A DNA stretch of 64,000 bases from Sphingobium amiense (GTDB lineage: Bacteria > Pseudomonadota > Alphaproteobacteria > Sphingomonadales > Sphingomonadaceae). Within the stretch, counting starts at the first letter, position 1, and every line of letters begins with the position of its first letter. The stretch is taken from contig NZ_AP018664.1 of the NCBI RefSeq assembly GCF_003967075.1, positions 2,604,001 through 2,668,000 of the forward strand, in the 5' to 3' direction. The notes beneath the pieces are model-generated. The model was given only the letters and a program-made list of their open reading frames with translations. It was not told the origin of the DNA and did not search any database. The position numbers were made by a program, and so were the translations under genes. This document shows positions 41,653 to 54,741 of this stretch, piece after piece.

Positions 41653-42762
41653 GGCGCGTGGACAAATTGGCTACTGCGCCAACTTCCAGATCAGGTGGCC
41701 TATGATGAAGTAGGTTGCGATGATGCCAATAGCTGCAAGAAAGCCTGTAAAGCCGGAAACGACTGTGCTGCGGAACCATCCACGTCCTGAAGCGAGCAGG
41801 CGCCTTTGCACGATTGCGTTTGTCGTGGCTGCCGAGAGCACCGCGACGATCACAACGAGGATTGTCAGCACTTCCATGTAACCATGCTCGCACGGAACCG
41901 GGCTTTCGCCAAACGATTGCCGCATGGGTTAGCGATTGACGTGGCACACTTGCCTTGATTCAAGGCTGCTTTTTGGAGGCAGGCTTGAGCCGGGGCGATT
42001 TAACCGAAGCAGAGTGGCGCGTTTTAAAGGACTTGCTGCCGATCGAGCCGGAGAACCGTGGCCGAGGCAGGCCACCTGAGCAGAACCGTTCGATCATCAA
42101 CGGCATTCTCTGGCGGCTCCGGTGTGGCGCTCCGTGGCGAGACGTGCCGCCCAAATATGGTAGCTGGAACACAATCTATCGGCGGTTCCGACGATGGAGC
42201 GAGGCTGGCGTCTGGGAAACGGTTGCGGTCACCCTGGCTGAGATCATGGCGGACAGCGGCCACTATAGCATCGACAGCACCACAGTCCGCGCCCACGTCT
42301 CGGCAGCGGGCGGAAAAGGGGGACTCATCGACGCGCTCTTGGCCGCTCGCGGGGCGGGTTCACCAGTAAGCTTCACTGCCTGGCTGATGCCCTCGGACGA
42401 CCGCTCGCCTTCATTCTGACTGGCGGTGAAGCAGCGGACTGCAAGGCGTATGATGCGCTGATCGATTTGCCCGAGCGCGCACCCGATGCCTTCCTTGCAG
42501 ACAAGGGTTATGACGCCGACGCCATCCGCGCGGACCTCGCCGAAAGGACGATCAAGGCCGTCATTCCGGGCCGATCAAACCGCCGTGTGAAAATCCATTA
42601 TGATCGGGTGCTCTACCGACAGCGCAATCGCATCGAGCGCATGTTCGGCCATCTCAAGATCAATCGCGCCATTGCCACCCGCTACGACCAACTGGCCAAC
42701 AGCTTCCTCGGAATGGTCCACCTCGCCACCGCCAGATACTGGCTCAAATTTGTCCACGCCGC
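41653..42762. mobile_element. IS5-family insertion sequence (1,110 bp) with a passenger gene
   Basis: The left end (41653-41668, GGCGCGTGGACAAATT) and the complement of the right end (42747-42762, GCGGCGTGGACAAATT) match at 14 of 16 positions. CTAG flanks both ends (41649-41652 and 42763-42766), consistent with a 4-bp target duplication. The element fills the short gap between two convergent host genes (stops at 41629 and 42773). It holds a frameshifted IS5-type transposase and a divergent 68-aa membrane protein. Ends this similar suggest a fairly recent insertion. Confidence 0.8.
41671..41877 (-). CDS. Small two-helix membrane protein carried inside the IS
   Basis: 68 aa: MEVLTILVVIVAVLSAATTNAIV forms one membrane helix and VVSGFTGFLAAIGIIATYFIIGHLIWKLA another, joined by a basic loop (QRRLLASGRGWFR). 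No family recognised. The stop codon lies 3 bp inside the left inverted repeat and the gene faces away from the transposase. ATG at 41875-41877; an upstream in-frame ATG (41925) is possible. Confidence 0.55.
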   Translation of the reverse strand: MEVLTILVVIVAVLSAATTNAIVQRRLLASGRGWFRSTVVSGFTGFLAAIGIIATYFIIGHLIWKLAQ

Positions 42763-42766
42763 CTAG
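41985..42766 (+). CDS. IS5-family transposase produced by -1 frameshifting
   Basis: The first frame (41985-42419) carries DLTEAEWRVLKDLLPIEPENRGRGRPP and the catalytic Asp in HYSIDSTTVRAH. The second frame, entered near the A4G5 run at 42314-42322, continues THRRALGRSRGGFTSKLHC, then Asp in FLADKGYDADAIR and Glu in RIERMFGHLK. Joined by a -1 slip the product is a full DDE transposase of about 260 aa. A TTG start at 41985 has GGAGG just upstream. The stop codon TAG comes from the flanking CTAG, so it depends on the insertion site. Confidence 0.85.
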
Positions 42767-43378: not shown

Positions 43379-43623
43379 CTGTCTATAGTGCAATAATGTC
43401 GCCAGATTTTCCAGCGATCAATCACGGTTTCGCAAACCGAACCCATCTGTCCAGATACGATAACACTGTCGTCCCCTTGCGAGGCTGCGTCTAACACTCG
43501 ATAGCCCGAAAACCAGTGGCGATGATCCGGATAATGCTCATTTTGGCAACGGGGTTTGGATGCGCCTGGCGACGAAGAACCAGGTCAATGGATCTGCCCA
43601 AGCAATTCACTATGAGGGGACAG

Positions 43624-45990
43624 ATGGAAATATTTGCTCACTCTGTTGATGGGCGACCGGAGGCCCATTGGGAGCCTCTGTCTCACCACTTGTCGCAAGT
43701 TGGTCATCGCGCGGCAGCATTTGCATCGCTGTTCGGCGCGGCCGACATATCGTGCGCCATGGGTCTGCTGCACGACATTGGTAAAATGTCAGAGTCCTAC
43801 CAGAATTATATCCGAAGCGCGCCCAAGGCTGGCGGTCCCAAGGGGCCGGATCACAGCAGCGCCGGGGCGAAAGAGGCCGCGCGCCTCTATCAGCCATATC
43901 TTGGCCGCATCATGGCATTTGGCCTGGCGGGCCATCATGCCGGGCTGATGGATGGCGGCGGCCATGAAGGCGGCAACCTGTCGATGCGGCTGACCAAATC
44001 GGTTGAAGATTATACCGGCTGGGAGGATCATGTCCTTGGGCTGCCCGGCGCCGAGGTGCTGACGACAGGACTGCCGCGCTTCGATCGCAATCGCATCGAC
44101 GCCACTTTTTCCCCGTCCTTTTTCGTACGGATGCTATTTTCCTGCCTGGTCGATGCCGATTTTCTTGCCACCGAAGCCTTTCTTACGCAGGCCAGCGGCG
44201 AACCGCTGCCTGCCCGGGGCGGGGTCATCACTGCCGATCATCTTGCCAAAGTTCGCACTTATATGGCGGGGCACAGGCGTTGCGACACCCCGCTCAACCG
44301 GCTGCGCTCGCAAATACTCGATCATGCCAATGGAAAGGCGGGGCTGCCGACGGGCCTTTTCACCATGACGGTGCCGACTGGCGGAGGCAAGACGCTGACA
44401 TCGCTTAGCTTTGCGATGGAACATGCGGCGGCCCATGATCTGCGCCGCATCATCTACGTCATCCCCTTCACCTCGATCATCGAACAGACGGCGGAGATTT
44501 TCCGCAAGATCCTGGGCGACGAAGATGTGTTGGAACATCATTCCAGCTTCGATTGGGATCGGCGCGAACCCGCGCGAGAGAATGATGAAGATGACGAAGG
44601 GCCGGCCGGGCTGGCCAAATTGCGGCGCGACGCACAGAATTGGGATGCGCCGCTGATCGTCACGACCGCGGTGCAATTTTTCGAAAGTCTGTTTGCAGCC
44701 CGGACCAGCAAGGCGCGCAAGCTCCATAATCTCGCCAAAAGCGTCATCATTCTGGACGAGGCGCAATCCATCCCGATCCACCTGTTGCGCCCTTGCATGG
44801 CCGCGATCGACGAACTGGCGCGCAATTATGGCGCGACCGTCATCCTGTGCACCGCTACCCAGCCGGCACTGCGGGTCCAGGACGGTGCGCTGCCCAGAAA
44901 AACGAGGGATGGCCACGCCGAGGGACTGGAGATCGGCGACGACCGCGAACTCGCGCCCGATCCGCAGGGTCTCTATAAACAGCTTCGCCGTGTGCGCGTG
45001 GAATGGCGTCACGATCCGGTCAGCGACGCGGAGATCGCAGCGCGCTTTGCTGCGCAGCCGCAGATGCTTTGCATCGTCAACAGCCGCGCCCACGCGCGCG
45101 ACCTGTTCGAGGCGATAGAGAAGCAGGATGGCGCCGCGCATCTGACGACCCTGATGTGCGCGCGCCATCGCCGCGCCGTGCTGGCGGACTTGCGCCAGCG
45201 CCTAGCTGCACGCCTGCCCGTGCGGCTGGTGGCGACCAGCCTGATCGAGGCCGGCGTCGACGTCGACTTTCCCGAGGTGTGGCGCGCGGTGGCGGGCCTG
45301 TCCAATATCGCGCAGGCGGCCGGGCGGTGCAATCGCGAAGGCCGGATTGAAGGGCTGGGACGAACGGTGGTGTTCGAACCGGCCGAGGTGGAAGGTCGCA
45401 AGCCCGTGCCGCGGGCGATGATCCCCTTTTACCAGGCGGCGAAGAACGCGGAGCGTAAGATCATGCGTGATCCCGACGCGGACATTCTGGGTCTGGAGGC
45501 GGTGCGGGAATATTATCGCTGGCTTTACTGGGAGCAGGGCTATGCCGCGCTGGACAAGGCGCGCCTGCCGGATGGATCCCCGATCGAGATCATCGCGGCC
45601 ATCCGCGATAGCTGCCGCAGGCTTGAGTTCCCCTTTGCGCGCATCGCGCAGGCTTTCCGCATGATCGACGATGTGATGGACCCGGTGATCGTGCCGTGGG
45701 GCGCAACGACCGAAGAGAAAGCGTCGATCGACGCACTGATCGCCGAAATGAAGGATGAAAGCCGACCTTTCCTGCCGTCCGGCGCGCAACGCAGGCTTCA
45801 GCAATATATCGTGCCTGTGCCGTCCGGAGCGCGCCAAACCCTGCTGGCCAGCGGCGCGGCGCAGGCTATTCGCGCAAAAGACTATGGCGACAGCTTCGTC
45901 CTGCTCGAAAACCCGTCGCTTTATGATGAGCGGTTCGGCCTGCGGCTGGACGATCCCACATGGCGGACCAGCGAGAGTAATATCATGTAA
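43624..45990 (+). CDS. cas3: Cas3 helicase-nuclease, type I-C
   Basis: 788 aa, fused HD nuclease and SF2 helicase. HD residues H50-D51 (MGLLHDIGK), DHSSAGAK and LAGHHAG; Walker A at about 251-258 (PTGGGKTL); DEAQ box at about 378-381 in place of the more common DEAH; motif VI QAAGRCNREGR at about 564-574. It unwinds and degrades DNA once Cascade has bound a target. ATG at 43624 (MEIFAHSVDG) is chosen because GAGGGGACAG lies just upstream; the frame extends 36 codons further without similarity. First gene of the effector operon. Confidence 0.96.
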   Translation: MEIFAHSVDGRPEAHWEPLSHHLSQVGHRAAAFASLFGAADISCAMGLLHDIGKMSESYQNYIRSAPKAGGPKGPDHSSAGAKEAARLYQPYLGRIMAFGLAGHHAGLMDGGGHEGGNLSMRLTKSVEDYTGWEDHVLGLPGAEVLTTGLPRFDRNRIDATFSPSFFVRMLFSCLVDADFLATEAFLTQASGEPLPARGGVITADHLAKVRTYMAGHRRCDTPLNRLRSQILDHANGKAGLPTGLFTMTVPTGGGKTLTSLSFAMEHAAAHDLRRIIYVIPFTSIIEQTAEIFRKILGDEDVLEHHSSFDWDRREPARENDEDDEGPAGLAKLRRDAQNWDAPLIVTTAVQFFESLFAARTSKARKLHNLAKSVIILDEAQSIPIHLLRPCMAAIDELARNYGATVILCTATQPALRVQDGALPRKTRDGHAEGLEIGDDRELAPDPQGLYKQLRRVRVEWRHDPVSDAEIAARFAAQPQMLCIVNSRAHARDLFEAIEKQDGAAHLTTLMCARHRRAVLADLRQRLAARLPVRLVATSLIEAGVDVDFPEVWRAVAGLSNIAQAAGRCNREGRIEGLGRTVVFEPAEVEGRKPVPRAMIPFYQAAKNAERKIMRDPDADILGLEAVREYYRWLYWEQGYAALDKARLPDGSPIEIIAAIRDSCRRLEFPFARIAQAFRMIDDVMDPVIVPWGATTEEKASIDALIAEMKDESRPFLPSGAQRRLQQYIVPVPSGARQTLLASGAAQAIRAKDYGDSFVLLENPSLYDERFGLRLDDPTWRTSESNIM

Positions 45991-46072
45991 TAACACCGAA
46001 ATGGAGTATACAAATAGCTTGATTGATTCAGAACAATAACAGAACATGAGATCGCGCTGGGGGATTCACCAA

Positions 46073-46744
46073 ATGGGTATTCGACTGCATGTCTGGGGCG
46101 AACGCGCCTGTTTCACGAGACCGGAGATGAAGGTCGAGCGCGTCAGCTATGATGTGATTACGCCGTCGGCGGCGCGCGGCATTTTGGAGGCGATCCACTG
46201 GAAGCCGGCGATCCGCTGGCATGTCGACCGCATCCACGTGCTGAGGCCGGTCCGCTTCCGGTCGATCCGCCGCAACGAGGTGGGCGCGAAGGCGAGCGCC
46301 GCCAATGTAGTCAGTGCCATGAAGCGCGGCACGACCGAAGGGTTGGGCATCGCCGTGGATGAAAATCGCCAGCAACGCGCGGCGCTGGTGCTGGTCGATG
46401 TTGCTTATGTGATCGAGGCGCATTTCACCCTGACCGGCAAGGCCGGGCCGGAGGACAGCGCCGCCAAACATGTGAGCATGTTCAACCGCCGCGCCGCGCA
46501 GGGCCAATGTTTTCACCGCCCCTGCCTGGGGACGCGGGAATTTGACGCCGAATTTGCCCTGATCGCCGACGGCGAACCCCTGCCGCCCTGCGAACTGCCG
46601 GCCGATCGGCGCGACGCCGATCTCGGCTGGATGCTGCACGACATAGACTTCGCGAATGGAAATGAATCCCGCTTCTTCCGCGCAAAGATGAAAGACGGCG
46701 TTATCGAAGTGCCGCCCTTCAGTGCGGACGAGGTGGTGGCATGA
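46073..46744 (+). CDS. cas5c: Cas5c (Cas5d), crRNA-processing nuclease and Cascade subunit
   Basis: 223 aa. GIRLHVWGERACFTRPEMKVERVSYDVITPSAARGILEAIHWKP is a typical Cas5c N-terminus. In type I-C this protein replaces Cas6 and cuts the repeat, leaving an 11-nt 5' handle. Of the Tyr-Lys-His catalytic residues described for the Bacillus halodurans enzyme, Lys-His is seen at 132-133 (AKHVSMF), but the Tyr position reads His (H42 in IHWKP). ATG at 46073 is used; 46046 is an alternative without a ribosome-binding site. Overlaps cas8c by 4 bp. Confidence 0.95.
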   Translation: MGIRLHVWGERACFTRPEMKVERVSYDVITPSAARGILEAIHWKPAIRWHVDRIHVLRPVRFRSIRRNEVGAKASAANVVSAMKRGTTEGLGIAVDENRQQRAALVLVDVAYVIEAHFTLTGKAGPEDSAAKHVSMFNRRAAQGQCFHRPCLGTREFDAEFALIADGEPLPPCELPADRRDADLGWMLHDIDFANGNESRFFRAKMKDGVIEVPPFSADEVVA

Positions 46745-48525
46745 CGATCCTCCAGGCGCTCGACCGTTATTATCATCGGCTTGAGGGCGTCGCGGAGCCG
46801 GGGTGCAGTCCGGAAAAATTCGGCTGGTGCATCATACTCGATCCTGACGGCAGGGTTGTCGATGTCGAGGATCGGCATGACCTTTCGGGCAAGAAGCCGC
46901 GCCCTAAAATCCATATGGTGCCCGCCGCGGTCAAGCGGACGGTCGGCATCGCCCCGAATTTCCTGTGGGACAAGAGCGCCTATGTGCTTGGCCGCACCGC
47001 CGGTGAAGGCAAACGCACCGCGCAGGAACATGCGGCCTTCGTAACCACGCATCTGGAACGGCTGGCGGGGCAGGAGGATGAAGGGCTTGTTGCGCTCAGG
47101 CGGTTTCTTGAACAATGGCGGCCCGAGCATTTCGATCAGTCGGACAAGTTCAGACCGGAAATGCTCGACGCCAATTTCATGTTCCGTCTCGACGGCGACA
47201 TGGCTTATCTGCACGACCGCCCCGCGGCGCGGGCGCTGGCCAGCGCGCGGGCGGGCGATGAAGAGGGCGACGGCGTTTTCTGCCTGATATCGGGGGAGCG
47301 AGGACCGATAGCGCGGCTGCATCCCACCATCAAGGGCGTGGAAGGCGCACAAACTGCCGGAGCGGCGCTCGTTTCCTTCAATCTCGACGCCTTTACGTCT
47401 TTGGGCAAGGATCAGGGCGCCAATGCGCCCACCAGCCAGGCCGCCGCCTTTCGCTACGGGGCCGCACTCAATCATTTGCTGACCCGCGACGGTCCCAACC
47501 GCGTCCGCCGCCCCATCGGCGACGCGACGGTCGTTTTCTGGGCGGACGCCAGCGATGCCAAAGCGGCGGAGGCGGCGGATGCGCTGTTCGGCAACTGGAT
47601 GGCAGGTGACATCACCGACGCGGAAGAGGCCCGCAAGATCGGCGAGGAGATGGACGCCGTCAGCAAGGGTAGGCCAATCGCGGAACTGCGTGCCGACATT
47701 GAGCCGGGCACGCGCTTCCACATCCTCGGCCTGTCGCCTAACGCCGCGCGCTTGTCCGTGCGCTACTGGCTGACGGGCACGCTGGACGAGTTCGCCCGGC
47801 GTCTGGCCGATCACCATGCCGACTTGCGTATCGAACCTGTGCCGATGGGCTGGGGCCGGGCGCCTTCGGTCAACCGCCTGCTGGCGCGCACCACCGCTTT
47901 GCAGGAAAAGTTCGAGAATATCCCGCCGCTGCTTGCCGGCGAGGTGATGCGCGCGGTCCTGTCGGGCGGCCGCTATCCGCAAAGCCTGCTGGCGGCCGCG
48001 ATCATCCGGCTGCGCGCGGGCGACGACCCGCTGAGCGGCTGGCATGCCGCCGTGATCCGCGCGGTGCTGCACCGAGACCATCGTATCGACCCGAAAAAGG
48101 AGGATGTGCCTGTGAGCCTTGCGCCTGACGAACCCAACCGGGCCTATCAACTGGGCCGCCTGTTCGCGGTGCTGGAAACGGCGCAGCGCATGGCGCTGGG
48201 CCGGGTCAACGCCACCATCCGCGACCGCTACTTCGGCGCGGCGTCCGCAACGCCCGCCAGTGTCTTTCCGCTGCTGTTGCGCGGCGCGCAGAACCATCTG
48301 GGCAAGCTCCGCAAGTCCGGCAAGGGCGGATGGGTCGAACGCGAGATCGAGGATATCCTCGAAAAGCTGTCGCTCGACCTGCCCCGCGCCCTGCCGCTGG
48401 CCGAACAGGGGCGTTTTGCCGTGGGCTATTATCATCAGCGGAAGGATCAGTTCAAAGGCCGGCCCGAGGTGGCTGCCGAACTGGAAGCAGCCGAAAGCGC
48501 AACTGAACAGGGGGACGAAGAATGA
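46741..48525 (+). CDS. cas8c: Cas8c (Csd1), large subunit of type I-C Cascade
   Basis: 594 aa. MTILQALDRYYHRLEG, GWCIILDPDGRVVDVEDRHD, PNFLWDKSAYVLG, LISGERGPIARLHPTIKGVEGAQTAGAALVSFN and FWADAS are typical of Csd1. The protein recognises the PAM and holds the crRNA 5' end in Cascade. Its start overlaps cas5c and its end overlaps cas7c (ATGA). The last 137 codons can also be translated separately as Cas11c. Confidence 0.95.
   Translation: MTILQALDRYYHRLEGVAEPGCSPEKFGWCIILDPDGRVVDVEDRHDLSGKKPRPKIHMVPAAVKRTVGIAPNFLWDKSAYVLGRTAGEGKRTAQEHAAFVTTHLERLAGQEDEGLVALRRFLEQWRPEHFDQSDKFRPEMLDANFMFRLDGDMAYLHDRPAARALASARAGDEEGDGVFCLISGERGPIARLHPTIKGVEGAQTAGAALVSFNLDAFTSLGKDQGANAPTSQAAAFRYGAALNHLLTRDGPNRVRRPIGDATVVFWADASDAKAAEAADALFGNWMAGDITDAEEARKIGEEMDAVSKGRPIAELRADIEPGTRFHILGLSPNAARLSVRYWLTGTLDEFARRLADHHADLRIEPVPMGWGRAPSVNRLLARTTALQEKFENIPPLLAGEVMRAVLSGGRYPQSLLAAAIIRLRAGDDPLSGWHAAVIRAVLHRDHRIDPKKEDVPVSLAPDEPNRAYQLGRLFAVLETAQRMALGRVNATIRDRYFGAASATPASVFPLLLRGAQNHLGKLRKSGKGGWVEREIEDILEKLSLDLPRALPLAEQGRFAVGYYHQRKDQFKGRPEVAAELEAAESATEQGDEE
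48112..48525 (+). CDS. cas11c: Cas11c small subunit from an internal start in cas8c
   Basis: In type I-C the Cascade small subunit is known to be made from an internal start in cas8c. Here, in frame, AAGGAGGA at about 48097-48104 is followed 8 nt later by GTG at 48112. This would give a 137-aa protein (VSLAPDEPNRAYQLGRLFAVLETAQRMALGRVNATIRDRYFG...). Size and sequence fit Cas11c, whose helices line the non-target strand. The AAGGAGGA also encodes KED in Cas8c, so the start is predicted, not proven. Confidence 0.8.
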   Translation: MSLAPDEPNRAYQLGRLFAVLETAQRMALGRVNATIRDRYFGAASATPASVFPLLLRGAQNHLGKLRKSGKGGWVEREIEDILEKLSLDLPRALPLAEQGRFAVGYYHQRKDQFKGRPEVAAELEAAESATEQGDEE

Positions 48526-49454
48526 GCAATCCGGTAACGAACCGCCACGAATTCATCCTCTATTTCGATGTCACGAACGGCAATCCCAATGGCGATCCCG
48601 ATGCCGGCAACATGCCGCGGCTGGACCCGGAAACCAATCTGGGGCTGGTGTCGGACGTGGCCTTGAAGCGCAAGGTTCGCAACTATGTGGCGATGGCGTC
48701 GGACAACCGCATCTACATGTCCGAAGGATCGACACTCAATCTGCTGCACAAGGAAGCCTGGGCGGCTGTCATGCCGGATGTGACCAAGACGGAAGATTTC
48801 AAGAAACTGCCGAAGGAGGAGGCCAAGGCGCGTGAATTGACGGCGTGGATGTGTTCCAATTTCTGGGACGTTCGCACATTCGGCGCGGTGATGTCCACGG
48901 GCGTCAACGCAGGGCAGGTGCGCGGGCCGGTCCAGTTCAGCTTCGCCAGGTCGGTCGAGCCGATCCTGCCGCTGGAAATCTCCATCACCCGCATGGCCGC
49001 AACGACCGAAAAGGATGCTGAGGAAAAGGGTGCGCGCACCATGGGCCGCAAGCATATCGTGCCCTATGGCCTGTATCGCGCGCATGGCTATGTCTCCGCG
49101 CCGCTTGCGTCCCACCCGGTCAAGGGCACGGGCTTTTCCGAGGATGATCTGGAACTGTTGTGGCAGGCGCTGGGCAATATGTTCGACCATGACCGCTCCG
49201 CCGCGCGGGGCGAGATGGCCAGCCGCAAGCTCATCCTGTTCCGGCATCAAAGCGCGCTAGGCAATGCGCAGGCGCAGTCTTTGTTCGACCGGGTCAGGAC
49301 ACTGCGCGTGCATCAGGGCGCGGCGCATGAAATCGGCAGCGATGGCTATTACAAGAATACCGACAACTGGCCGCCCGCGCGCCGCTGGGAGGATTATCGC
49401 GTGACCATTGATCGCGAGAATCTCCCGTCCGGGGTCGAGATCATCGAACGGTGA
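48522..49454 (+). CDS. cas7c: Cas7c (Csd2), backbone subunit of type I-C Cascade
   Basis: 310 aa. RHEFILYFDVTNGNPNGDPDAGNMPRLDPETNLGLVSDVALKRKVRNYV, FWDVRTFGAVMSTGVNAGQVRGPVQFSFARSVEPI and HIVPYGLYRAHGYVSAPLA are the Csd2 signature. Six or seven copies form the helical filament along the crRNA. It ends the effector transcription unit, and a hairpin terminator follows 5 bp after the stop. Confidence 0.96.
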   Translation: MSNPVTNRHEFILYFDVTNGNPNGDPDAGNMPRLDPETNLGLVSDVALKRKVRNYVAMASDNRIYMSEGSTLNLLHKEAWAAVMPDVTKTEDFKKLPKEEAKARELTAWMCSNFWDVRTFGAVMSTGVNAGQVRGPVQFSFARSVEPILPLEISITRMAATTEKDAEEKGARTMGRKHIVPYGLYRAHGYVSAPLASHPVKGTGFSEDDLELLWQALGNMFDHDRSAARGEMASRKLILFRHQSALGNAQAQSLFDRVRTLRVHQGAAHEIGSDGYYKNTDNWPPARRWEDYRVTIDRENLPSGVEIIER

Positions 49455-49458
49455 GGGT

Positions 49459-49491
49459 GCGGGCCTTGTCAGTGCAAGGCCCGCTATTTCT
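49459..49491 (+). terminator. Terminator of the cas3-cas5c-cas8c-cas7c operon
   Basis: A perfect 10-bp stem (GCGGGCCTTG / CAAGGCCCGC, loop TCAGTG) followed by TATTTCT. It ends the effector operon and so separates it from cas4-cas1-cas2. The same hairpin is symmetrical and would form in a minus-strand RNA as well. Confidence 0.8.
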
Positions 49492-49539
49492 CATGCGTAT
49501 TGAATGGAATTTCAATCCACGCCTCCATGCGGAGACGAC
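49459..49539 (-). ncRNA. Solitary crRNA-like element (degenerate repeat plus 24-nt guide plus hairpin)
   Basis: On the minus strand, 49539-49509 is a 31-nt relative of the array repeat. Both have GT, a 7-bp stem (here CGTCTCC/GGAGGCG with one U-G wobble; array CGCCTCC/GGAGGCG), a loop (GCAT against CACAC) and an 11-nt handle (TGGATTGAAAT against TGGATCGAAAC). The next 24 nt (49508-49485; TCCATTCAATACGCATGAG, then AAATA) act as a guide, and the GCGGGCCTTG hairpin closes the RNA. Cas5c should be able to process it. The guide matches a site at the cas4 ribosome-binding site. Its promoter is not identified. Confidence 0.75.
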
Positions 49540-49665
49540 ATACTATGGTGGCCACCATTCGATCTCGATCACGCTGATTCCAAGGATTTTGATCTTGATA
49601 TGTCTCGATCTTCTCATTGCGCGCTCTCACTCCCGGTCGGCAAGAGGGCAGTAATCGAAGCACAT

Positions 49666-49702
49666 GAATTGGTCAATTTTTTGATGCATATTGTATGGAG
49701 AA
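49666..49702 (-). promoter_or_regulatory. Predicted Cascade-binding site overlapping the cas4 ribosome-binding site
   Basis: On the minus strand TTC (complement of 49700-49702) precedes TCCATACAATATGCATCA (from 49699 downwards). The crRNA-like guide reads TCCATTCAATACGCATGA. The two agree at 18 of the first 22 positions, with mismatches only at 6, 12, 17 and 19 and none beyond the first five identical seed bases except position 6. TTC is the usual type I-C PAM. The site covers the GGAG of cas4 and ends 10 bp before its ATG, so bound Cascade would block cas4-cas1-cas2 expression. Confidence 0.7.
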
Positions 49703-49711
49703 CGATTATTG

Positions 49712-50353
49712 ATGCAACCGCCCCCACCGGACCCTGCCGTCGAGGACGCACTGGTGCCGGTGTCGGCCTTGCAGCATTATCTTTTCTGCCCGCGCCAATG
49801 CGCGCTGATCCATGTCGAGCGGATATGGGCCGAGGACGGCGCCACCGCAGAAGGGCGCATTCTCCACGAACGCGTCGATGGCGGACGCCCCGACCGGCGG
49901 CAGGGCGTCCGCACGGTGCGGGGCATCGCGCTACGGTCCTTGGCCCATGGGCTGACGGGCAAGGCTGATGCGGTCGAGTTCCGCGAACGGGGTGCGGCGC
50001 CCTATCCCGTCGAATATAAAAGAGGCCGCCCCAAGTCCCACCGCGCGGACGAGGTGCAACTCTGCGCCCAGGCCATCTGCCTGGAGGAAATGTTCGGCCA
50101 GGCGGTGCCGGAAGGCGCGCTCTTTTACGCACAAACGAAAAAGCGCCTGATTGTGACATTCGACGAAGCCCTGCGCGCGTTGACCCTGCAAGTCGCCGCC
50201 GATGTCCGCACGATGATCGCGGAAACCCACACACCGCCGCCGCGCTTCGGCCCGGGATGCAAACATTGTTCGCTCGCCGATCAATGTCGGCCCACAAGGC
50301 TGGAGAAGCCGCCGTGCGTGCAGCGCTGGCTGACCGCTCAGTTAGATGACTGA
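49712..50353 (+). CDS. cas4: Cas4 exonuclease, spacer-acquisition factor
   Basis: 213 aa. The Fe-S cysteines are C26 or C30 (FCPRQCAL) and C183, C186, C192 (GCKHCSLADQC). RecB-type nuclease residues are D86 (GKADAVEF), E101 and K103 (PVEYKRG), with QLCAQAICLEE following. It trims prespacers and selects their PAM. ATG at 49712 has GGAGAA 10 nt upstream; a TTG at 49691 is less likely. First gene of the cas4-cas1-cas2 unit and probable target of the crRNA-like element. Confidence 0.95.
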   Translation: MQPPPPDPAVEDALVPVSALQHYLFCPRQCALIHVERIWAEDGATAEGRILHERVDGGRPDRRQGVRTVRGIALRSLAHGLTGKADAVEFRERGAAPYPVEYKRGRPKSHRADEVQLCAQAICLEEMFGQAVPEGALFYAQTKKRLIVTFDEALRALTLQVAADVRTMIAETHTPPPRFGPGCKHCSLADQCRPTRLEKPPCVQRWLTAQLDD

Positions 50354-50362
50354 GGAGAGAAA

Positions 50363-51403
50363 ATGCGTCGTCATCTCAACACCATCTATGTGACCAGCGA
50401 GAATGCCTGGTTACGCAAGGACGGCGCCAACATCGTAGTGGAAGTGGATGGACAGGAACGCGGCCGCGCACCCTTGCACATGATCGGCGGCGTTGTGTGC
50501 TTTGGCCGTCCGGGCGCTTCCCCGGCGCTGATGGCGGCCTGCGCCGATGCGGGGATCGCCCTGTCCTTCCTGACACCCAATGGCAAATTCCTGGCCCGGA
50601 TGGAGGGGCTGCGCACCGGCAACGTCCTGCTGCGGCGGACCCAGTACAGGATGGCGGACGATCCGGCGCGCGCCGTGCCGATTGTGCGGGGCATCGTCAC
50701 AGCCAAGGCCGCCAACCAGCGGACCGTGCTGCGCCGAGCGTTGCGCGACCATGGCGACAGGATGGAAGCGGCAGCCCGCGCCACGATCGAAACCGCCGAA
50801 GCGCGCCTCGTCCATATCGCACGTCGCGCCGCAGCAGCACAGGATGTCGCGACTTTGCGAGGCCATGAAGGGGAAGCGGCGCTCGTATATTTCGGCGCCT
50901 TTGATGCCATGATACAGGGTGATCGCACCGCCTTTTCCTTTCGCGGCCGCTCCCGTCGGCCTCCGCTCGATCGGGTCAACGCGCTTCTGTCTTTCCTTTA
51001 TGCCATGCTGGGGCATGATTGCCGGTCCGCGCTGGAAAGTGTCGGGTTCGATCCGCAGGTCGGCTTTCTGCACGCCGATCGACCGGGACGGGCCAGCCTG
51101 TCGCTGGATTTGATGGAAGAGTTGCGCCCGGTGCTGGCAGACCGGCAAGCGCTGACATTGATAAACCGCGGACAACTAAAGGCTCGTGACTTCGCGATCG
51201 ACGAAGGTGGCGCCGTATCGCTCACAGAGGATGGGCGCAAAGCGGTGCTGGTCGCCTGGCAGGATCGCAAGAAGCGCGACCTGCGCCATCCTTTCCTGGG
51301 CGAGACCATGCCGATGGGGCTGGTGCCGCATGTCCAGGCGCTGCTTCTGTCGCGCCATGTCCGCGGCGACCTGGACGGCTATCCGCCATTCATCTGGAAA
51401 TGA
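50363..51403 (+). CDS. cas1: Cas1 integrase, type I-C
   Basis: 346 aa. N-terminal beta domain (NTIYVTSENAWLRKDGANIVVEVDG) and helical catalytic domain with Glu169 (LRGHEGEAALVYFGAF), His237 (GFLHADRPGRASLSLDLMEE) and Asp249. With Cas2 it inserts new spacers at the leader end of the array. It is 9 bp downstream of cas4. Confidence 0.97.
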   Translation: MRRHLNTIYVTSENAWLRKDGANIVVEVDGQERGRAPLHMIGGVVCFGRPGASPALMAACADAGIALSFLTPNGKFLARMEGLRTGNVLLRRTQYRMADDPARAVPIVRGIVTAKAANQRTVLRRALRDHGDRMEAAARATIETAEARLVHIARRAAAAQDVATLRGHEGEAALVYFGAFDAMIQGDRTAFSFRGRSRRPPLDRVNALLSFLYAMLGHDCRSALESVGFDPQVGFLHADRPGRASLSLDLMEELRPVLADRQALTLINRGQLKARDFAIDEGGAVSLTEDGRKAVLVAWQDRKKRDLRHPFLGETMPMGLVPHVQALLLSRHVRGDLDGYPPFIWK

Positions 51404-51406
51404 TCC

Positions 51407-51697
51407 ATGCTGATGCTTGTAACCTATGACGTGAACACGCAGGATGCGGAGGGGCGCCGCCGATTGCGCCGGGTCGCGCGCGCTTGCCTGGATTACGGCC
51501 AGCGGGTTCAGAATTCGGTGTTCGAATGCGAGGTGGACCCAGCGCAATGGACGCGCTTGCGGGCACATTTGCTTGCTGAGATCAATCAGTCGAAGGACAG
51601 TTTGCGATTCTACAGACTGGGCGCGGACGGCAAGCGTCGGATCGAACATGTTGGCGCAAGCCCGGTCATTGATCTGGACGGCCCGCTGCTTTTTTGA
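51407..51697 (+). CDS. cas2: Cas2, structural subunit of the integration complex
   Basis: 96 aa with a ferredoxin-like fold: MLMLVTYDVNTQDAEGRRRLRRVARACLDYGQRVQNSVFECEVDPAQWTRLRAHLLAEI and SLRFYRLGA. It bridges two Cas1 dimers. It starts 3 bp after cas1; the array leader follows. Confidence 0.96.
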   Translation: MLMLVTYDVNTQDAEGRRRLRRVARACLDYGQRVQNSVFECEVDPAQWTRLRAHLLAEINQSKDSLRFYRLGADGKRRIEHVGASPVIDLDGPLLF

Positions 51698-51879: not shown

Positions 51880-54741
51880 GTCGCCTCCCACACGGAGGCG
51901 TGGATCGAAACAAGAGCTGGCGCGTCGATCCGTCCGAGGAGAAAGTCGCCTCCCACACGGAGGCGTGGATCGAAACAAGCTGGAGACGACGGAAGGCGTC
52001 GACGCGGGGCGTCGCCTCCCACACGGAGGCGTGGATCGAAACATGAATGCGTCGAACGGCTCCACATCGCTTTCGCGTCGCCTCCCACACGGAGGCGTGG
52101 ATCGAAACATCATGAGGGCCAGCGTTTTGGCCCGGCGCTCTGGTCGCCTCCCACACGGAGGCGTGGATCGAAACCAGCGCCTTGCCAGCGAGCCATCGCG
52201 CTCCAGCAGTCGCCTCCCACACGGAGGCGTGGATCGAAACATGGTCGATCCGATCAGAAATAGGCGCTCGAACGTCGCCTCCCACACGGAGGCGTGGATC
52301 GAAACGTCGTAACGTCGATCGGCATCAACGACGCCAATAGTCGCCTCCCACACGGAGGCGTGGATCGAAACGTCGACGATACCCAGATCATCGGACGGGC
52401 TACCCGTCGCCTCCCACACGGAGGCGTGGATCGAAACGCGCTTTCGACGCCTCTTGTCAACGGAGACACCGGTCGCCTCCCACACGGAGGCGTGGATCGA
52501 AACCGTGCCGCCGCGCCGCCGACGTCCAGCGGCCCCCGTCGCCTCCCACACGGAGGCGTGGATCGAAACAGATGCTCATAAACGGCCTCGCCTTCGTCTC
52601 CCGGTCGCCTCCCACACGGAGGCGTGGATCGAAACCCGGATGCGACTGACGATCGGGTCAAGCAGATGGTCGCCTCCCACACGGAGGCGTGGATCGAAAC
52701 ACGAAGGGAATGCTGCACGGGCTTAACGCCACCCGTCGCCTCCCACACGGAGGCGTGGATCGAAACATGTCCGCTGATCGGCGTGATCCCGCGCGGCACG
52801 CGTCGCCTCCCACACGGAGGCGTGGATCGAAACCGCTGCAGCACTACGCCGGCCGCGTAGAGACCTTGTCGCCTCCCACACGGAGGCGTGGATCGAAACA
52901 TCAAGATCATCATCGGCCCGGTGGGGTCGGGCAGTCGCCTCCCACACGGAGGCGTGGATCGAAACTCGCGCAGGCGTGGCCCAAGGATGCTGTTACGGGC
53001 GTCGCCTCCCACACGGAGGCGTGGATCGAAACCTTGATTGTGACGCAGGCCAGGTCGCCTCCCACACGGAGGCGTGGATCGAAACTGCTGGGCGCGAAGG
53101 ACGGGGCGATGACGACGCGTCGCCTCCCACACGGAGGCGTGGATCGAAACGGTCGCGAGGGTGCGCTCGGAGGTGACCGTCGGGTCGCCTCCCACACGGA
53201 GGCGTGGATCGAAACACCTCGACGCTTGGCGTGTGCCCCTTTCCGGCGCGTCGCCTCCCACACGGAGGCGTGGATCGAAACTTCATCATGAAAAGTATTA
53301 CCGCTGATACTGACGGTCGCCTCCCACACGGAGGCGTGGATCGAAACTCTCACGCGCAGCCAGCGGCGCAATCTACTCGCGAGTCGCCTCCCACACGGAG
53401 GCGTGGATCGAAACATTACCACGCCACGCGGTCGCAATCACGCCTACCGGTCGCCTCCCACACGGAGGCGTGGATCGAAACACGATTGGGCGTCCGATTA
53501 TGCCGACGCCTTCCGGTCGCCTCCCACACGGAGGCGTGGATCGAAACACCACGGCGCGGCTCGAAGTGCAGTTGCAGATTGTCGCCTCCCACACGGAGGC
53601 GTGGATCGAAACATCGAACTGCTGCGCAACGCCATGGCTCTGACCGTCGCCTCCCACACGGAGGCGTGGATCGAAACCGTATGGAACGCCTGAAGGCCGC
53701 GCAGGCGGAACGTCGCCTCCCACACGGAGGCGTGGATCGAAACGCGTCAGGGGCAGGGCGGTGGGGTAAAGGCCGCTCCGGTCGCCTCCCACACGGAGGC
53801 GTGGATCGAAACTCTATGAAATTCAGCGCCGCGCCGGGCGGCACGTGTCGCCTCCCACACGGAGGCGTGGATCGAAACCGCGCCATGATGCTTTTCGCTG
53901 CCTCGGCATCTTGTCGCCTCCCACACGGAGGCGTGGATCGAAACGGGTCCTTCTTGCGCATGTCGTTGCGATACCGGCGTCGCCTCCCACACGGAGGCGT
54001 GGATCGAAACATTCGATCCCCTCGCCTTCGCCCGCATGGAACCCGTCGCCTCCCACACGGAGGCGTGGATCGAAACGACGTGTCTATGTCGCCAATTTCG
54101 AATTTGGTGCCGTCGCCTCCCACACGGAGGCGTGGATCGAAACGCCAATCGCCTTGCCGCATTGGCGGGTGTCGGCCAGGTCGCCTCCCACACGGAGGCG
54201 TGGATCGAAACGTAGGCGGCCTGGATGTCGAAGCAGCGGCCGCGCGTCGCCTCCCACACGGAGGCGTGGATCGAAACTCATATTCCGGCGTGATCCCGTG
54301 AACCGCTGGCCGTCGCCTCCCACACGGAGGCGTGGATCGAAACCTCCACCCGCACCACCCAATCCTCAAGATTGGCGGGTCGCCTCCCACACGGAGGCGT
54401 GGATCGAAACGACCTTCGCCGCCGCCTCACTTCCGAAAACGGAGTGTCGCCTCCCACACGGAGGCGTGGATCGAAACGCGATGTTCGTCACGCCATGGGC
54501 GGCGCACGCCAGTCGCCTCCCACACGGAGGCGTGGATCGAAACATCAAGATCATCATCGGCCCGGTGGGGTCGGGCAGTCGCCTCCCACACGGAGGCGTG
54601 GATCGAAACTGCTGGGCGCGAAGGACGGGGCGATGACGACGCGTCGCCTCCCACACGGAGGCGTGGATCGAAACGACAACGGCTATATCGGCCATGCCAC
54701 CTACAGCGGGTCGCCTCCCACACGGAGGCGTGGGTCGAAAC
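51880..54741 (+). CRISPR. Type I-C CRISPR array, 44 repeats and 43 spacers
   Basis: The 32-bp repeat reads GT, stem CGCCTCC, loop CACAC, stem GGAGGCG, handle TGGATCGAAAC. The first 43 copies look identical; the last (54710-54741) has A to G in the handle, marking the leader-distal end. Spacers are 33-37 nt except number 18 (53033-53053, 21 nt). Spacer 16 (52900-52933) equals spacer 41 (54544-54577), and spacer 19 (53086-53118) equals spacer 42 (54610-54642). Transcription is on the plus strand from the cas2-proximal leader. Open frames through the array are artefacts of the repeat. Confidence 0.99.

Follow-up and report, generated by a model that had tools for sequence, protein, structure and literature searches.

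The type I-C operon and its solitary element

The window, i.e., the whole 64,000-nucleotide stretch of Sphingobium amiense DNA analyzed here, contains a CRISPR-Cas locus with the order cas3-cas5c-cas8c-cas7c-element-cas4-cas1c-cas2-array. Its cas5c, cas8c and cas7c genes, all of them present, scored above the cut-offs of the profile models TIGR01876, TIGR01863 and TIGR02589, respectively, which assigns the locus to type I-C. The operon (43516-51697) is occupied by cas3, 5, 8, 7, 4, 1 and 2, leaving no space there for cas6. Type I-C systems lack cas6, and Cas5c does its job. The features considered below are the following, with creA designating the solitary repeat and its guide and creT a short ORF next to them:

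43627..45990, + strand: cas3, start inferred; cas3_HD model above cut-off and cas3_core just below
46046-46744, + strand: cas5c, type I-C Cascade gene
46741-48525, + strand: cas8c, type I-C Cascade gene
48522-49454, + strand: cas7c, type I-C Cascade gene
49459..49484, no strand assigned: strong hairpin at the creA 3' end; on the + strand, a terminator-like site behind cas7
49483..49508, - strand: creA guide TCCATTCAATACGCATGAGAAATAGC, directly after the repeat and starting at 49508
49509..49539, - strand: creA repeat, degenerate copy of the array repeat (GTCGTCTCCGCATGGAGGCGTGGATTGAAAT), stem-loop retained
49543..49617, - strand: creT, 24-codon ORF MRRSRHIKIKILGISVIEIEWWPP, stop included, with related ORFs in five further loci; a likely toxin
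49682..49699, - strand: target (protospacer) of the creA guide, overlapping the cas4 ribosome-binding site and the predicted creT promoter
49690..49717, - strand: predicted creT promoter, weak
49700..49702, - strand: TTC (type I-C PAM), directly 5' of the target
49712-50353, + strand: cas4 (profile models), likely ATG at 49712
50363-51403, + strand: cas1c, model above cut-off
51407-51697, + strand: cas2 (profile models)
51880..54741, + strand: CRISPR array with repeat GTCGCCTCCCACACGGAGGCGTGGATCGAAAC and a single-base difference in the last copy

Two further features of the region were recorded. Upstream of cas3, two ORF pieces (41955-42419 and 42467-42766) resemble by eye a transposase gene (41955-42766). 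In the array, two spacers are duplicated (52868 = 54512 and 53054 = 54578), and between their first copies a spacer of only ~21 nt stands behind the repeat at 53001; the duplicated and short spacers (52868-53110 and 54512-54675) are a sign of recombination inside the array.

The initial annotation had proposed that Cascade is guided by the solitary element to the 5' region of cas4, and there represses cas4-cas1-cas2. Re-alignment of guide and target gave the same result as had been written, with agreement at 18 of 22 positions (1-5, 7-11, 13-16, 18 and 20-22), mismatches at 6, 12, 17 and 19, and TTC on the 5' side, a trinucleotide reported as the PAM of a type I-C system (PMC8406640). The position over the cas4 ribosome-binding site was likewise confirmed, the GGAG of the cas4 leader (49697-49700) falling within the target and its TTC, ahead of the cas4 ATG at 49712. 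When the host genome was searched, TTCTCCATNCAATNNGCAT was matched exactly once, at the target, and the sole other place within two mismatches was devoid of TTC. The reading of the element as carrying a guide for type I-C Cascade, partially matched to a site flanked by TTC, was supported. Missing from that earlier account was the conserved ORF (49617-49543) that lies between the target and the element.

Guide-target co-variation and the census of cas7-cas4 gaps

The same layout, antisense between cas7 and cas4 and composed of a target, an ORF of 24-25 aa, a degenerate repeat with its guide and a hairpin, was found in six loci: the window, L005 (Sphingobium sp. SYK-6), L006 (Novosphingobium sediminicola), L010 (Gluconacetobacter aggeris), L015 (an uncultured Sphingomonas) and L138. 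The degenerate repeat adjoined cas genes outside the array in all six, its stem-loop being folded for five, and no second repeat was seen after the creA guide in these loci. Behind the guide, a hairpin was present in the sequence of all six loci and was folded for five; a T-run on the creA strand was clear in L010 alone of the five folded hairpins, the minus-strand hairpin of the window having no clear one.

The six guides differ, and each matched its own site upstream of its own ORF, with TTC in six of six. Guide and cas4 upstream sequence thus co-varied across loci with differing guides, co-variation having been one of the checks proposed in the initial annotation. Agreement was seen in 58 of the 60 cells of the seed (positions 1-5 and 7-11), the two mismatches being both at position 9 (L006 and L010). 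Positions 6 and 12, at which the earlier account had expected mismatches to cost nothing because every sixth guide base is not read, were mismatched in all 12 cells of the six loci, which supports that expectation; position 18 was mismatched in four of six. Past position 11, little pairing was found in L005 and L015.

We have then scored agreement at guide positions 1-5 and 7-11 within the cas7-cas4 gap (seed score, maximum 10). The guides scored 10, 10, 9, 9 and 10 in their own gaps (window, L005, L006, L010 and L015, respectively) and that of L138 scored 10. The 188 array spacers of the first five loci reached at most 8 in the gap, and guides placed against the gaps of other loci reached at most 7 (20 comparisons, five loci). 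Shuffled guides attained 9 in 3 of 20,000 cases for the five loci and in 4 of 20,000 for L138 (7 of 40,000 over both control sets), and never 10. When the whole locus before the array was considered, 4 of the 188 array spacers also scored 9; hence, the 9s of L006 and L010 are notable for their place and not for the score alone. A long-range guide-target scan (815 guides from 66 sources) gave 19 hits of at least 12/15, among which L005 (12) was not separated from chance, and L015 was not listed. These two were missed because their match ends near position 11, and the gap-restricted test does separate them.

In a first sample of 65 cas4 loci from species genomes, the nearest relatives mostly had less than 20 nt between cas7 and cas4, and four had 224-332 nt (L005, L006, L010 and L015). 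Later Cas7 searches, with overlapping samples, covered 385 genomes of the class, 397 of the family, 7 of the family of G658 and 94 of the genus, and further ones covered 347 genomes of the family of the L010 genome and 159 and 201 of the genera of L006 and L015. They matched 13, 8, 1, 3, 22, 2 and 4 genomes, respectively, and contributed one new case of the module, L138, which was found once the layout had already been described.

Of the 139 sequences that entered the census (138 loci plus the slice from the window), 9 had no pair, 10 had one that was weak or inconsistent and 34 were duplicates; with these set aside, 86 distinct cas7-cas4 pairs were left, and in 40 of them the identity of Cas7 was 60% or more. 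A repeat-like sequence (strict pattern) was present in the gap of six of the 86 pairs, and all six had a seed score of 9 or 10. The gap measured at most 30 nt in 31 of the 40 closer pairs, which leaves cas4 without a separate leader in these pairs, and it held the module in six; the remaining three were L090 (another gene), L093 (where a partial Cas7 hit makes the gap unreliable) and L099 (71 nt). Where the module is present, the cas4 leader arrives together with the ORF and the element. Plasmid-borne I-C operons (n = 3) had gaps of 3-10 nt, and a fourth plasmid region was counted in the census only.

Other wide cas7-cas4 gaps, mostly of distant operons, had different genes inside. Those of L031, L037, L048, L058, L061 and L062, among the more distant operons, contained HicB-like, HicA, nucleotidyltransferase or partner, or addiction-module antitoxin genes. 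The cas7-cas4 junction looks like a hot spot for toxin-antitoxin-type cargo.

Several single observations were made during this comparison. The stretch that follows cas7 in the 71-nt gap of L099 resembles by eye the creA hairpin of L010, with no creT, repeat or guide, and the module has probably been deleted there. The 547-nt gap of L090 is filled by a + strand ORF in which an HNH-like motif can be seen by eye (CAYCG...LDHVIPR...C..CN), and has no repeat element. Other isolated repeats were present in L013, L019 and L022, two of them at contig ends, and the L019 repeat gave no hit in the long-range scan. At the start of the L015 array (L015:8168-8605), partial double repeats (GTCGCCTCCCGCGCGGAGGC then GTCGCCTCCCG) without the TGGATCGAAAC handle precede normal repeats.

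A related arrangement was found away from cas4. The region between cas3 and cas5 of L007 (Gluconacetobacter diazotrophicus PA1 5) contains one degenerate repeat and its guide (L007:1500-2450), downstream of a VapBC operon (NCBIfam VapB and tRNA-fMet VapC models above cut-off). At 105 nt upstream of vapB, a TTC-flanked site was matched by this guide at 10 of 10 seed positions, with position 6 mismatched and position 12 matched; none of 20,000 shuffles reached 10, and 19 reached 9. The guide of L007 matches the strand opposite to that matched in the six creT loci. G1333 (L122) carries an identical repeat and guide and looks to be of the same species, and was thus counted with L007 as one case. 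This is possibly a second kind of I-C module, containing a classical toxin-antitoxin pair.

The creT peptide and its predicted promoter

The antisense ORFs related to creT are MRVSKRIRVKVLGISVIEIEWWPP (L005), MRKRGWKLKISVGNFALSVEWEPL (L006), MRHQRRIRVKIFGVCCLEIEWLPP (L010), the GTG-started MRKRGWKLKIAVGFLQIKIEWEPL (L015) and MRRSTIRKITLTLGFLKIEIDLEPI (L138). Synonymous changes per site exceeded replacements between the window and L005 (pS 0.77 vs. pN 0.15) and between L006 and L015 (0.91 vs. 0.19), and in all 10 pairs of the first five loci (L138 left out), in some only slightly. These comparisons indicate that the creT peptide is under purifying selection. Residues M1, R2, G13 and P23 are invariant in the six peptides; K10, E20 and W21 are so in the first five and not in L138, where the W of the C-terminal EW pair has been lost. 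All six peptides have a positive N-terminal half and a negative C-terminal half, with a mean hydrophobicity near zero.

We found no relative of the six peptides in Pfam and PHROGs, and tblastn of the window peptide alone against plasmids and phages returned none either. A pattern combining the creT tail with the repeat had no match in viral contigs and two in 396 Sphingomonadales genomes, the window and G171 (at the place of L005); this pattern is strict, missing L015 and, by its letters, L138. To judge by mean hydrophobicity, the peptides are no hydrophobic membrane helices, and creT does not resemble the classical membrane toxins of that kind. Regarding amphipathicity, the beta moment was above that of shuffles (p < 0.05) in only two of the six peptides and the helix moment in none.

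The predicted creT promoter of the window consists of TTGCAT (49717-49712), a 16-nt spacer and TACAAT (49695-49690), with a shuffle p of 0.09, and its -10 falls inside the target. The predicted -35 shares bases with the start codon of cas4, and such an overlap would account for the position of the target over the ribosome-binding site of that gene. In the six loci, 44-105 nt separate the start of the target from the ORF downstream; the largest distance is that of L010, where at best a possible -35 is inside the target. For the L006 promoter (TTGACA-15-TATAAC), 0 of 300 shuffles were as good, while those of the remaining four loci (p 0.26 to 0.61) were not clearly above shuffles. The mean promoter score was 5.0 on the creT strand vs. 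4.7 on the cas4 strand (p 0.12 for the cas4 strand of the window), and a stricter scan of the window region found no promoter on either strand. The promoter is thus the weakest link of the creT account.

Probable regulation by the solitary guide

Based on these data, the solitary element, creA, probably acts as the RNA antitoxin in a toxin-antitoxin pair that is under CRISPR control and resides in the type I-C operon, with Cascade predicted to block creT, likely a peptide toxin. The repeat-guide-hairpin, the match to the target, the ORF, the order shared by six loci, the co-variation of guide and target and the purifying selection on the peptide support this reading at the level of sequence. 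creA would be transcribed and processed by Cas5c, and Cascade loaded with its RNA would bind the TTC-flanked site upstream of creT, in its putative promoter, and block creT transcription. With pairing limited to about 10-18 bases, Cascade would bind with no cutting by Cas3. Loss of the Cascade genes, or a phage anti-CRISPR disabling Cascade, would derepress creT, the product of which is presumed to be toxic. The cell would thereby come to depend on having its CRISPR system, and growth would cease in infected cells that lose it.

The layout is that of CreTA (CRISPR-regulated toxin-antitoxin) modules, which are already known. The first CreTA paper reportedly appeared in Science in 2021 and the CreR paper in Cell Host and Microbe in 2023, and the CrePA paper came out in Nat Chem Biol in 2025. 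What appears to be new here is the type I-C subtype, the conserved peptide product and the cas7-cas4 position. CreTA has been described for types I-B and I-F (PMC8501985, PMC10097628), with the earlier creTA genes all located around cas6 according to PMC10097628. The CreTA of Haloarcula hispanica and Halobacterium hubeiense (type I-B; PMC8501985) also presents a degenerate repeat and guide by cas genes, a TTC-flanked target upstream of a mini-ORF and a seed of positions 1-5 and 7-11 with 6 and 12 free. In H. hispanica, a single repeat and guide end in a terminator; the order is similar here, with a hairpin in the place of the terminator and a T-run behind it on the creA strand that is clear in L010 and not in the window. 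In contrast to the haloarchaeal modules, the present one belongs to type I-C without cas6, has an ORF of 24-25 codons conserved as a peptide, and lies antisense in the cas7-cas4 junction, with the predicted promoter pressed against the cas4 start. The Acinetobacter CreTA (type I-F; PMC10097628) similarly occupies a cas intergenic gap absent in most relatives, with a guide matching a PAM-flanked site upstream of a conserved mini-ORF. It differs in having two repeats, a CC PAM, a 33-bp mini-ORF acting as a small RNA, and a creT divergent from creA (PMC10097628). In CrePA (PMC12737573, section 10), the toxic product is a protein, as we infer here, repressed by the effector and freed by anti-CRISPRs. 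CreP typically has a KilA-N domain (PMC12737573), whereas the window peptide has 24 aa, and no KilA-N toxin was found among the six peptides with Pfam and PHROGs.

The string I-C is missing from the main texts of PMC8501985, PMC12737573 and PMC10097628, and no I-C CreTA was among the matches listed in open-literature titles and abstract starts; the original CreTA, CreR and CrePA papers or their supplements could hold cases.

The alternatives concern mostly what is regulated. The creT product could be a non-toxic accessory peptide, e.g., a Cascade regulator or an anti-anti-CRISPR factor, placed under Cascade control through the creA guide. The location of the ORF inside the I-C operon in six loci is compatible with this, and a small peptide with halves of opposite charge would suit partner binding. 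However, the published seed-only guides with private mini-ORFs guard toxins (PMC8501985, PMC12737573, PMC10097628), and several other I-C operons hold toxin-antitoxin-type genes at this very junction, so that we regard an accessory role as unlikely.

Rather unlikely, too, is that creT acts as an RNA toxin sequestering a rare arginine tRNA through early AGA or CGA codons, as in Haloarcula hispanica, with its peptide being irrelevant. The window creT does open with ATG AGA AGA TCG AGA, across the seven cas genes 7 of the 260 arginine codons are AGA, five of six loci have AGA or CGA as codon 2, and rare codons opening a longer ORF were foreseen in PMC8501985. Nevertheless, the arginine codons of L015 are CGC and CGT only, the per-site excess of synonymous over replacement changes extends along the ORF, and the invariant G13 and P23 stand far from the start, sequestration needing neither.

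The proposal of the initial annotation corresponds to a CreR-like autorepression, in which a Cascade complex occupying the target would shut down cas4-cas1-cas2, with or without creT, and acquisition would be tied to the level of free effector. CreR, reported in types I-B, I-E and V-A (PMC13131331, PMC12737573), is like creA a crRNA-like RNA with limited complementarity to DNA of the cas locus. Moreover, the distance from TTC to the cas4 start downstream is 5-41 bp across the six loci, a bound complex would cover the leader, and the + strand terminator-like hairpin behind cas7 (49459-49484) suggests that cas4-cas1-cas2 may need their own start. Still, CreR represses cas promoters (PMC13131331, PMC12737573) and, according to section 9 of the review PMC12737573, as a rule has no toxin gene coupled to it, whereas here a private conserved ORF, selected as a peptide, lies between target and guide; the target is also upstream of this opposite-strand ORF, present with the element in all six loci. 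In addition, cas4 lies within 30 nt of cas7, with no module or leader, in 31 of the 40 closer pairs (Cas7 identity of 60% or more), the L010 target is 41 bp from cas4 and off its ribosome-binding site, and the similar element of L007 matches DNA upstream of vapB, far from cas4. For these reasons, cas4 autorepression was rejected as the main function, and a CreR-like role appears improbable. Repression of cas4-cas1-cas2 is possible as a by-product of the bound complex.

That the element is a relic, a decaying repeat whose spacer accidentally matches nearby DNA, could appeal to the array spacers scoring 9 in the locus before the array and to the one array spacer reaching 13/15 somewhere in the 64-kb window, yet it is hardly credible, being contradicted by the controlled co-variation in six loci and by the conserved ORF.

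The best explanation therefore moves from control of acquisition to a toxin guarded by Cascade. A wider and more tentative picture, possible although doubtful, is that of a family of Cascade-guarded I-C peptide toxins, in which one bound Cascade would shut both the toxin promoter and the overlapping leader of cas4-cas1-cas2, and an anti-CRISPR would free the growth-arresting peptide and the acquisition genes together; with the Gluconacetobacter diazotrophicus guide holding VapBC, unrelated toxins would be placed under one switch. If the guarded-toxin reading is true, the combination of a peptide and a seed-only guide would mean that modules of CRISPR addiction have also arisen around toxins of another kind. 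Among the subtypes, I-C is a common one (PMC7684278), and such a module would offer a genetic handle on its persistence and on the response of cells to anti-CRISPRs. The every-sixth-base pattern, legible in the six guide-target pairs, also provides a simple rule for finding further modules.
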